DNA from: Croceibacterium sp. TMG7-5b_MA50
GTDB lineage: Bacteria; Pseudomonadota; Alphaproteobacteria; Sphingomonadales; Sphingomonadaceae
Assembly: GCF_039830145.1 (NCBI RefSeq)
Contig: NZ_CP156082.1
Location: 452,001 to 516,000, forward strand
Direction: 5' to 3'
Length of the DNA stretch: 64,000 nucleotides
Made by a program: the position numbers and the translations under genes. Below, one piece after another: positions 32,362-39,219 of the stretch. The first letter of the stretch is position 1. Each line of letters opens with the position of its first letter. The notes below the pieces were generated by a model. The model did no database searches, was not told the origin of the DNA, and saw nothing but the letters and a program-made list of their open reading frames with translations.

Positions 32362-33316
32362 CCTTTCCCAACCGGCTGCCGCGCAGCAGCAGACGGAGGC
32401 GGAGCAACGGGAACAATGGTCGGCGGCGCAGGCCCGTCAGCGTGCCTTCGTCCGCGAATTGTTCGACCGGGCCGGCTTCGCCCCGGTGGCCGAACTTTCC
32501 GCGGAGGGTCGGGAGGTGCGGCGAATGCTGCTGAGGGACCCGTATGGTGGGTTGCCGGTCCCCGGGGTGGAACTGGAACGACGTGCCAGTGGTGAGGTGA
32601 CGTTGCGCCTGCAATACCGCAACTGGTCGACCGATCCGGTCCAAGTAGCAGCGAGCGCCTGGCAGGAGCTTGCTGCGCTGGAGGATGCGGTTCTGACCCA
32701 GGCCGACTTCGTTCCGCTCCCGCCGTCGCCGCCATCCTCTTCATCGCCGCCTTTGCCACCACCGATATGTCACGGCTGGAACGCGCGGTTCGAAGCGGAT
32801 TACCACCGGAATGCAAGCTGGTCGCAATGTGGTGGGGACCGCGGACCGGCCCTGGATTATGCGGTCGCTTTCGCGGAAATCGCCGTCTCTAGCAAGGCAG
32901 GCTGCGCGTTCGACCGCGGCGATCCATTCGGGTCGTACAACAAGTGTTGGGGCGAAACGCTGCAGCTGGATGACCGTGCACTGGATCGGGACTTCGCGGC
33001 GCTGCGGGCGGAGTATGACGCTGCGCATGGCCACGAACAGCTCGGCAAGGCCCGCGTGGCGCTGCGGGTGGAGGGGATGGAGGTGGGCGATCCGCAATGG
33101 GTCGCCGCACGCGACGCGGTGGCGGAGGTGAAGGCGGTGCGGGATGTGCGCTGGGATTGCCTGCGCCGCTTGCAGCAACTGGCCGGGCGCGCCTCCGACG
33201 CCTCGCCCGCAGACCGAGCGAAGATGCGGCAGACGGTCGATCACTGGTCCAGGTGGCTGACGGAGCAGGAGAGGAACTACGCGGAGGTCCTGCAGGGGCT
33301 TGCCTGGCCCGGGTAG
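32324..33316 (+). CDS. Secreted protein of unknown function with proline/serine linker
   Basis: A 330-residue protein with a signal peptide ([20 protein letters not shown], cleavage about residue 20). A Gln/Glu/Arg-rich part is followed by a Pro/Ser linker (about 131-147, [17 protein letters not shown]) and then a region with four cysteines (149, 169, 194, 208) that could form two disulfides in the periplasm. The last 90 residues are helical and charged. I recognise no family. The start at 32324 is preferred over an in-frame GTG upstream because it gives the signal peptide. It is divergent from the HWE kinase, with almost no space between the possible starts. Confidence 0.75.
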
Positions 33317-33396
33317 CGCCGGGCCGGGTGCATGCTGCGTCATTGGTCGCCGCGCCCGCCTTGCACCCGGAACGGGCCGCGAACATATACGCGGCC

Positions 33397-36240
<2,844 letters not shown>

Positions 36241-36290
36241 ATTAGTTTAGCAGCACTGGGGTTTAATTCCAGTAATTTAGTTCCGCTTAT

Positions 36291-38429
36291 CTAAGCTGAA
36301 TCCACATCTACATTCAGTCCTCTCTCCTTGTTATCTGTAAAGTAACCCTCTTCTGCTTCTTTACTGAGTCGGAAAATACGCCGATTCCCGCTGTTCCTGT
36401 CCCGTATCACTAAACGTTGATCAGAAAGCTTCCGTCCTCTCCGTCCGATCAACTGATATGAGCAATCAAGCTCACCCGCCAGCTCAGAGGCCACCATATC
36501 CCTTGCCTCGCTAAATAGAGTTTCTAAAATACCCAGCTCAGTGCGCGGAAGCAACAATTCTTTATCTACTTCTTTTAATTTATCGCTATACTTTTTTGAA
36601 AGATTCGCGACACGACAGGTGCCACTCTTGCACTTCGGGCATAACATATCAAAAAGTTCGAGACTGGGAAGCTGATCCAGTTGGTAAGTTTCAGCACAGC
36701 TATCGCATTTAATTTCCTGATTCCTGTTCAAGAATGCTCGTATTATAGTCGTATAGTTAAAAATTCTTTCCACGAAATACAGCCTGTGCTCGCGAGAGAG
36801 CATCGGTCGACCAAAGCTGATCCCGTACTTTTGGCAAAGGCCGTGATTAAGAGCATAGACGTTTACAGTATGACCATCGCGATCCTTCATAACATAGTAC
36901 AATGTTATAAAAAAGTTTAGCTCTAACGTGTCTAGAATAGACTCAAGTTGAACAGGCACGTGGAAATGACTAGAGGGCGTTCTGCCGCGGACGCCGCGTG
37001 TCACAGCAGACTCTTTATAATCCCTTAGTTCTCTCGCGCGATCTACAATCTCTTCAATGAGTTCTTTTAGGCTGTAGATTGAGGCCCTCTCTGAGAAACT
37101 TACATGAGCAAACTTTTGCAAGCCAAAAAATGGCTCAATCTTATCCGCAAAATATTTGCCGGAAGCTTCCTGGATAGCTCTAATGGTGACAGGCTGCCCA
37201 TATGTTATAAAATTGTCATAGAGGTTAGAAAGAATGTGCCCGAGGCTCCTGGGATTAGCCATCGATGCATAGTATAGTTGCCGATACAGGGTATCTTTCT
37301 CTCCTTCGCAAAAGTTTGAGAAAGATTTTCTGACGAAGGATTGGAACCGAGATTCTAAAAGTCGCTCAGTGAAGTCGATTGCCTTCTGTTCCATCGTGGA
37401 TACATCGGTTTCTCCGTATAGGCGGAAGAGATCCAAAGATATTTGATCAATCTTCTGAGGATCAATTTGCCCTAAATACACCCTATTTGGATAGCAAGCT
37501 ATCTTGAACTTTACGAGTTCATTTGACCAATTATTTAGTGGTGCCAGTACGGAGTCAACAAACACCTCCATTGCTTGTTGGGGAAGTTCGGAAAAATCAT
37601 CGATGAATACGTATAGCTTCTTTATGCCAACAGAAGACAAAACTTCTTGAAGTCTTTCAAGTACACCGGTGATGTTGAGCGTTCGGAGGATGAAAGTTGC
37701 TTCTTCTTCGTCAGCAGATGCAATGGCCTCACTTCGCACGCGAGATCCCTTAGATGCTGACACATTAAGAGCCGCGGAAGAAGAGAGCTTGGCTCCCGCG
37801 GACAGATTCTTTCGCTTTTCGCTTTCTGCTGTATGGCGATTTGCTCGCGTGACCCGCTTTTCCTTGAGAAGACTGAGATCAGTCTCAGAGAACTCGATCC
37901 CTTGAGCAAGTAAATCTGAAATCTCAGCACTAATGTCACTCTTCTTCAAGCCAAGAGCCTTCAGAACTTTCTTGAACGTGTCTTGCTCTAAGCTTTTCTG
38001 TAGTTCACTTTGAATGTCTCGTAGAACTGCTCGTATAAATGCCTGATGCAAAAGTATTTTTTGCACTGTGTCGTCGTCCGCTGCGACCCCGGCTTTGCGG
38101 ATCGCATTCAGCGCCGTAGGATCAACTTCCGCAGCTTCGTACACGGTTTTAATATCAACGTAGGCGGTAACGTTTCCTTGCTTTGCTCGTAATCCATGCT
38201 GCGCACGCAGGAATATTGTCGATTTTCCCGTTCCTTTCCTCCCAACGATAAACGTCGTATTTGGCTTCAAGATAGTCTTCAGTACGCCATCATTTTGCAG
38301 AGGATCTACGTAGAGCTTTTCGATAAGCGACTCATCGCTTTCGTCATCGCGCAGGTCTGCTCTTCTATAGAGCTTCAAGGAGTGAGCGGCGTTGGAACAG
38401 CCAACGAGATCGCGTGACGTGTATGACAT
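36291..38429 (-). CDS. Orphan P-loop ATPase with zinc ribbon and winged helix
   Basis: A 712-residue protein with no clear family assignment from sequence alone. The P-loop is GRKGTGKS (63-70), preceded by PNTTFIV. The Walker B strand is LYVFIDDFSE (272-281), and NPRSL (392-396) resembles the sensor-2 Arg of STAND/Orc-like ATPases. Residues 140-250 are a charged, Ser/Lys-rich insertion. Cys575, Cys578, Cys597 and Cys600 form a zinc ribbon (CDSC...CPKC), and the end (about 630-695) looks like a winged helix. The layout recalls the Sll1717-type and related ATPases found in defence loci, but that is inference. The gene is AT-rich, alone, and begins next to a repeated palindrome. Confidence 0.85.
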   Translation of the reverse strand: MSYTSRDLVGCSNAAHSLKLYRRADLRDDESDESLIEKLYVDPLQNDGVLKTILKPNTTFIVGRKGTGKSTIFLRAQHGLRAKQGNVTAYVDIKTVYEAAEVDPTALNAIRKAGVAADDDTVQKILLHQAFIRAVLRDIQSELQKSLEQDTFKKVLKALGLKKSDISAEISDLLAQGIEFSETDLSLLKEKRVTRANRHTAESEKRKNLSAGAKLSSSAALNVSASKGSRVRSEAIASADEEEATFILRTLNITGVLERLQEVLSSVGIKKLYVFIDDFSELPQQAMEVFVDSVLAPLNNWSNELVKFKIACYPNRVYLGQIDPQKIDQISLDLFRLYGETDVSTMEQKAIDFTERLLESRFQSFVRKSFSNFCEGEKDTLYRQLYYASMANPRSLGHILSNLYDNFITYGQPVTIRAIQEASGKYFADKIEPFFGLQKFAHVSFSERASIYSLKELIEEIVDRARELRDYKESAVTRGVRGRTPSSHFHVPVQLESILDTLELNFFITLYYVMKDRDGHTVNVYALNHGLCQKYGISFGRPMLSREHRLYFVERIFNYTTIIRAFLNRNQEIKCDSCAETYQLDQLPSLELFDMLCPKCKSGTCRVANLSKKYSDKLKEVDKELLLPRTELGILETLFSEARDMVASELAGELDCSYQLIGRRGRKLSDQRLVIRDRNSGNRRIFRLSKEAEEGYFTDNKERGLNVDVDSA

Positions 38430-38452
38430 GGATCCAAGGTACTATGGATCCA
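38428..38452 (-). promoter_or_regulatory. Repeated TGGATCCA palindrome at the ATPase start
   Basis: The 9-base word ATGGATCCA occurs at 38428-38436 and again at 38444-38452, spaced 16 bases. Each contains the 8-bp palindrome TGGATCCA. The first copy overlaps the start codon of the ATPase gene (38427-38429 on the minus strand) and its leader. Two evenly spaced palindromes fit an operator for a dimeric regulator, possibly the winged helix of the ATPase itself; this is inference. Confidence 0.45.
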
Positions 38453-38586
38453 CTCTGCCGGCAACTGCGTGCGGCTTGAACCTGCTCTCACCAGCCACTC
38501 CGCTGACGTTCTGTTTGATGGTTGGATGAGTGAAGCCGAAGCTATCCCGATGTTCTGCTAGCTTCCCGCCGCCGGTGGCGATCACC

Positions 38587-39219
38587 TTACTCCGGCGTCT
38601 TGCCGACCACCTCGCCCTCGGCCTCCGCGCTCAAGCCATGCCGCAGCAGCATCGGCAGCTGGGTGAAGGTGAACAGGAAGCTCAGCGGCATGAACAGCCA
38701 CAGCTTGGCCGCCAGCCACGCCTCGAAGCTCAGCGTATAGGTCAGCGCGGTGTTCAGCGCCGCCAGCACCAGGAAGAACCCGCCCCAATTGCGCGAAAGC
38801 TTCAGCCAGCCTTCGTCGGTGAGGCCGTCGAACGCCGCCTCCAGCAGCACCTTCAGCAGCGGCCGCCCCCTGCGCCAGCCCCACAGCAGCGCGATGCCGA
38901 AGCCCAGATAGATGATCGTCGGCTTCCACTGGATGAAGCGCTGGTCCTGGAACCAGATGGTCAGCGCGCCGAAGCCCACGATCAGCGCGGTGGAGAGGGC
39001 CAGCATGGGGGAGATGCGGCCCAGCCGCCACTTGCTGACGCCCAGCGCCACCAGCGAGGCGGCGATGAAGGCGGCGGTGCTCTTCACCACGGCCAGGATC
39101 TCGCCCGCGGCATCCTGCCCGTCGGGGCGGAAGTGGCGATAGGCGAGGAAGAACACCAGCAGCGGGCCGTAATCGACCAGCACATTGATCCAGCCGCTTT
39201 TCGCTTTGGTGTCGGCCAT
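38587..39219 (-). CDS. yciB: YciB/IspZ-family inner membrane protein
   Basis: This 210-residue protein has about five hydrophobic segments and family motifs: NVLVDYGPLLVFFLAY at the start, TIWFQDQRFIQWKPTIIY near the middle, and WGGFFLVLAALNTALTY. YciB is thought to aid septation and envelope synthesis; the name IspZ (intracellular septation A) is older. Its ATG overlaps the ftsY stop by one base, so it is coupled to ftsY. The C-terminal tail (LSAEAEGEVVGKTPE) is polar. It is the last gene of the mtaB-ftsY-yciB group. Confidence 0.93.
   Translation of the reverse strand: MADTKAKSGWINVLVDYGPLLVFFLAYRHFRPDGQDAAGEILAVVKSTAAFIAASLVALGVSKWRLGRISPMLALSTALIVGFGALTIWFQDQRFIQWKPTIIYLGFGIALLWGWRRGRPLLKVLLEAAFDGLTDEGWLKLSRNWGGFFLVLAALNTALTYTLSFEAWLAAKLWLFMPLSFLFTFTQLPMLLRHGLSAEAEGEVVGKTPE

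Follow-up and report, generated by a model that had tools for sequence, protein, structure and literature searches.

Downstream of uvrA in Croceibacterium sp. TMG7-5b_MA50 lies a single gene, read from the opposite strand, that encodes a P-loop ATPase of 712 residues (Table 1). We analyzed it within a window of 64,000 nucleotides (contig NZ_CP156082.1, positions 452,001 to 516,000), and the term window is used here for the whole of this stretch. The gene stands alone in a 2.3-kb insert, with no other gene of a mobile element and no partner antitoxin. The first-pass annotation had marked out an AT-rich segment, and the GC profile agrees, running at 0.43-0.50 across ~36240-38560 against 0.65-0.74 on either side; the gene itself has a GC content of 0.45, compared with 0.67 for neighboring genes. 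Its codon use, which had been described as unlike that of any neighbor, lies at a synonymous-codon distance of 0.91 from the local average, versus 0.11-0.39 for 17 neighboring ORFs. The genome holds no second copy, and none of 59 other genomes of relatives carries the gene, at this locus or elsewhere. Taken together, the foreign GC content and codon use and the sporadic distribution mark the gene, at the level of sequence, as horizontally acquired, as had been proposed.

Table 1. Features of the uvrA 3' region, with coordinates in the window
Feature	Position	Strand	Basis or remark
uvrA ORF as called; 3' end is the hotspot boundary	33097..36240	+	3' flank differs among relatives
AT-rich cargo segment at the uvrA 3' hotspot	36241..38586	.	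GC profile; other genes there in relatives
ATPase ORF, 712 aa, ORC/STAND-type P-loop, two winged-helix regions and zinc ribbon	36291..38429	-	ORF list, 10-sequence alignment, AF2
C-terminal MarR-like winged helix, aa 622-700	36330..36566	-	Lrs14/MarR/TFE profile matches; Foldseek MarR matches
Zinc ribbon CxxC...CPxC, aa 575-600	36630..36707	-	C575, C597 and C600 invariant, C578 almost so
First winged-helix-like region, aa 485-570, invariant SHF and GLC	36720..36977	-	AF2 secondary structure, alignment
NPR motif, aa 392-394, sensor-2-like	37248..37256	-	P393, R394, G397 invariant; sensor role putative
Walker B FIDDFSE, aa 275-281	37587..37607	-	DD and SE the same in all 10 homologues
Walker A GRKGTGKS, aa 63-70	38220..38243	-	core invariant in 10 homologues
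Pair of palindromic boxes TGGATCCA-N8-TGGATCCA adjoining the start codon; putative operator for autorepression	38429..38452	-	sole such pair in the genome
yciB, right-hand neighbor via local rearrangement	38587..39219	-	yciB flanks island-free in 16 relatives

All the motifs named in the first-pass annotation are found in this one minus-strand ORF. In an alignment of 10 homologues the Walker A core, the DD and SE of Walker B, the PR of the NPR motif and the SHF and GLC triplets are invariant. The ribbon cysteines are arranged as CDSC at 575 and CPKC at 597, three of the four being invariant and the fourth nearly so. Such invariance across 10 homologues argues that the motifs are not due to chance, and, as judged from the alignment, they are intact and under selection. 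An AF2 model built from the same 10 sequences (mean pLDDT 76, pTM 0.76) contains a winged helix at 629-690, where one had been predicted at the end of the protein; a winged-helix-like region at ~485-570, ahead of the ribbon, had not been listed before. When folded alone, the C-terminal half resembles TFIIE and MarR-type winged helices. The MarR-type character of the terminal domain is borne out by Lrs14 profile matches (E down to 1.4e-4) and by Foldseek matches to MexR and YusO (E ~1e-3).

The protein combines a Walker A motif, a Walker B acidic pair, a sensor-2-like arginine and a winged helix, and these features place it in the ORC/STAND class of AAA+ ATPases. The best Foldseek matches in the PDB are an ORC subunit (4xgc_D, E 1e-5) and an archaeal Cdc6/Orc1 bound to origin DNA (2qby_B, E 7e-4), in keeping with the STAND/Orc-like core suggested earlier. 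The likeness consists of an AAA+ core followed by a winged helix; overall TM-scores are nevertheless low (0.24-0.44), and the ATPase differs in having a poorly predicted insertion at ~178-242, a zinc ribbon and a second winged helix. Avs3 (E 0.013) and Apaf-1 rank lower and share the same broad ATPase class, but neither the N-terminal effector nor the C-terminal repeat sensor of such STAND proteins is seen here. No effector domain of the nuclease, TIR or membrane kind was recognised, a BFVD fold search with the model returned nothing at E <= 0.001 and the PDB yielded no convincing sequence relative of the core. Based on the profile and fold results, we interpret the architecture as an ORC/STAND AAA+ core followed in turn by a winged-helix-like region, the zinc ribbon and the MarR-like winged helix.

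None of the family models tested scores this protein above its curated cut-off, and no characterized housekeeping family claims it. The best match is the Sll1717-family P-loop ATPase (NCBIfam NF047389, a model of 454 aa), with an E-value of 5e-14 and 52.2 bits, which falls below the curated 75-bit cut-off; literature searches of partial coverage returned no paper on this family. Next in kinship stands DS-41 (NCBIfam NF053860, DS41_1), an experimentally validated anti-phage defense system (DefensePredictor, PMC13092281). The P-loop core aligns with it over residues 33-283 (model 15-229, E 1.7e-9), but the score of 37.2 bits is far from the 370-bit equivalog cut-off, and the ATPase, at 712 aa against 448 aa for the model, adds the zinc ribbon and the MarR-type winged helix. 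The kinship may thus reflect a shared ATPase fold alone. The Pfam ORC-CDC6-like family (PF24389) scores 15.3 bits (E 0.0083), under its 27-bit gathering cut-off, and a PADLOC scan of the ATPase gave no convincing whole-protein match, only weak partial ones (best E 1.4e-4, to a wHTH).

Where, then, has the gene been inserted? The first-pass annotation placed the insertion between uvrA and yciB. This holds for the genome at hand, but not as a general site: in two genomes of the same genus (G001 and G002), in which blocks are reordered, yciB and uvrA lie 13-22 kb apart. Compared with these two genomes over window positions 9300-38600, the uvrA block is displaced with respect to the blocks that hold yciB and the ribosomal-protein genes. 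This displacement indicates that a rearrangement has happened. The position of argG, the usual flank beyond the slot in relatives, is consistent with it, as argG lies ~0.85 Mb away in this genome. The adjacency of uvrA and yciB is therefore a local feature, and the meaningful insertion site is the 3' end of uvrA. No integrase is found beside the ATPase gene, integrase-family proteins being encoded elsewhere in the genome, and the ends of the insert share no sequence with other loci.

To characterize this site we read the sequence 3' of uvrA at 55 loci of the same family (L039-L053, L088-L127), 53 of these flanks being long enough to score. AT-rich islands are present in 43 of the 53, and in 38 within the first 1.5 kb, versus 0 of 16 yciB flanks on either side (Fisher p 1.6e-7). 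The cassettes measure 1-3 kb and hold one to three genes per locus. The cargo of 43 of the 55 loci, together with the window ATPase, amounts to 75 proteins that fall into 69 clusters, so the contents are nearly all unrelated. When main cargo proteins were scanned singly, 15 of 30 matched PADLOC models of known or candidate defense systems (E <= 1e-5), including a retron RT-Toprim, dCTPase, dGTPase, a Septu-like PDC-M01A, a PD-T4-2-like protein, PDC-S49 and HEC-06. Among local control genes the figure is 1 of 10, the single match being uvrA itself, an ABC-type ATPase, which illustrates that an ordinary ATPase can be picked up by the ATPase models of PADLOC. Scans of pooled cargo add PARIS, DarT, a macro domain, cytosine (C5) methylases, GmrSD, RelA/SpoT and reverse transcriptases. 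Half of the cargo has no defense match, so the slot may hold more than defense genes. The window ATPase fits the pattern of hotspot cargo, being an AT-rich insert right after uvrA that is missing in relatives, where other genes, many of them of defense type, occupy the same spot.

In 12 of the 55 flanks (for example L048, L053, L098, L100, L112 and L113), degraded copies of the uvrA tail separate uvrA from the cargo. None appeared in reversed-sequence controls, and none was found within the window. We take these degraded tails as probable scars of repeated insertion at the 3' end of uvrA.

Homologues of the ATPase are few and scattered. A class-wide sample of 385 genomes contributed two, with 52% and 45% identity, and a phylum-wide sample of 398 genomes none outside the genome itself. 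Further homologues occur in Gluconobacter and Acetobacter (58%), in a Piscirickettsiaceae MAG (33%), in a MAG labelled Pseudonocardiales (51%, partial), at a Sphingomonas contig end and on a 6-kb mobilizable plasmid of Enterobacter (37% identity). At most of the other loci that carry it, the gene is clearly AT-richer than its surroundings. A near-perfect palindrome with 19-bp arms is located ~50 bp upstream of the Piscirickettsiaceae homologue (L005, 9910-9951) and may be a terminator or an operator. In viral collections, six contigs besides the Vibrio filamentous phage KSF-1phi carry homologues, most of them in prophage or phage contigs. KSF-1phi itself has an N-terminal fragment of the ATPase spread over two annotated hypothetical ORFs (L008, 6544-6834), apparently decayed. 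The neighborhoods of several homologues are telling: L131 lies immediately 3' of the mod and res genes of a type III restriction system, L083 and L133 have phage genes adjacent, and L132 adjoins the portal and terminase genes of a P2-like prophage. In P2, the stretch from gpA to the portal gene gpQ has been described as a hotspot of anti-phage genes (PMC9122126), and L132 sits on its Q side; the window copy differs in being chromosomal and in occupying another slot.

These mobile contexts invite two other explanations. The ORC/Cdc6 fold and the presence of homologues on a small plasmid, in prophages and in a filamentous phage would suit a replication or partition factor, akin to an Orc/Cdc6-like initiator, of a mobile element that became stranded on the chromosome. 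However, the 6-kb plasmid and KSF-1phi encode replication initiators of their own, and the chromosomal gene is alone in its insert and intact instead of decayed; we regard this origin as very unlikely. Alternatively, the ATPase might be cargo with another selfish role, such as plasmid or prophage competition, superinfection exclusion or addiction, that gives the host no protection from lytic phage. The predominance of prophage and phage contigs among viral-collection homologues would be explained, and the uvrA slot does house a DarT/macro pair, a cassette of toxin-antitoxin type. As the window copy is chromosomal, with neither a surrounding element nor a partner antitoxin, a selfish role seems unlikely, and its overlap with defense makes the distinction partly semantic.

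The sequence ahead of the gene bears on how it may be controlled. A pair of GGATCC palindromes, spaced 16 bp apart, runs right up to the ATG. The Gluconobacter and Acetobacter gene (L002/L003) has a pair with the same 16-bp spacing in the same place, and the pair before L086 nearly matches it, with GGATCC and GGACCC at a distance of 15 bp. The chance of an exact GGATCC pair within 200 nt is ~3e-5. The pair is confined to close relatives, being absent before six more distant homologues and L006, and a promoter and terminator scan gave nothing above chance. Since the protein has a domain of MarR type, a box pair at the start codon is most readily read as a putative site of autorepression. The same domain and the operator-like boxes could also belong to a transcription regulator of STAND/MalT type that works on its own, controls host or phage genes and is not itself a defense effector. 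Yet the pair occurs once in this genome, at the gene's own start, so that no regulon is visible, and the gene resides in a cassette slot rich in defense genes; a regulator of this kind is, in our judgment, distinctly unlikely.

We propose instead, with moderate confidence, that the ATPase is a candidate one-gene system, acquired horizontally, that interferes with phages or other invaders. The uvrA slot is common to many defense cassettes, and homologues reside on phages, prophages and plasmids. A foreign ATPase gene in a cassette slot so rich in defense probably encodes a one-gene phage-defense protein of a new kind. The guess that it belongs to the single-gene anti-phage type is likewise strengthened by the slot, by the contexts of the homologues and by the sub-threshold kinship with DS-41.

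How might a single protein obstruct an invader? The ATPase would bind the paired boxes at its start codon and repress its own gene, and such self-repression would keep it scarce. Upon infection, invader DNA or a phage factor may contact the protein and trigger its ATP-dependent assembly on the invader DNA, with the winged-helix region, the zinc ribbon and the MarR-type winged helix as putative DNA-reading modules. The resulting DNA-bound assembly would block replication or transcription of the invader. As no effector domain was recognised, we prefer such direct obstruction to cell suicide, albeit with low confidence. Tentatively, and with somewhat less than even confidence, we picture the 3' end of uvrA in this family as a compact slot that usually holds one small defense module, in which turnover proceeds without a resident integrase and leaves uvrA-tail scars, and in which the ATPase represents a new self-repressed single-gene system.

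Both this class of ATPase and the notion of defense hotspots are already known, whereas our literature searches, partial in coverage, returned no description of this architecture or of the uvrA 3' slot. An ORC-like ATPase joined to a zinc ribbon and a MarR winged helix would add a separate architecture to the P-loop defense proteins. As about half of the scanned cargo proteins match no known defense model, the slot may also offer a simple source from which new defense genes can be harvested family-wide. The unmatched main cargo, for example at L048, L091, L109 and L111, could be unknown defense genes.
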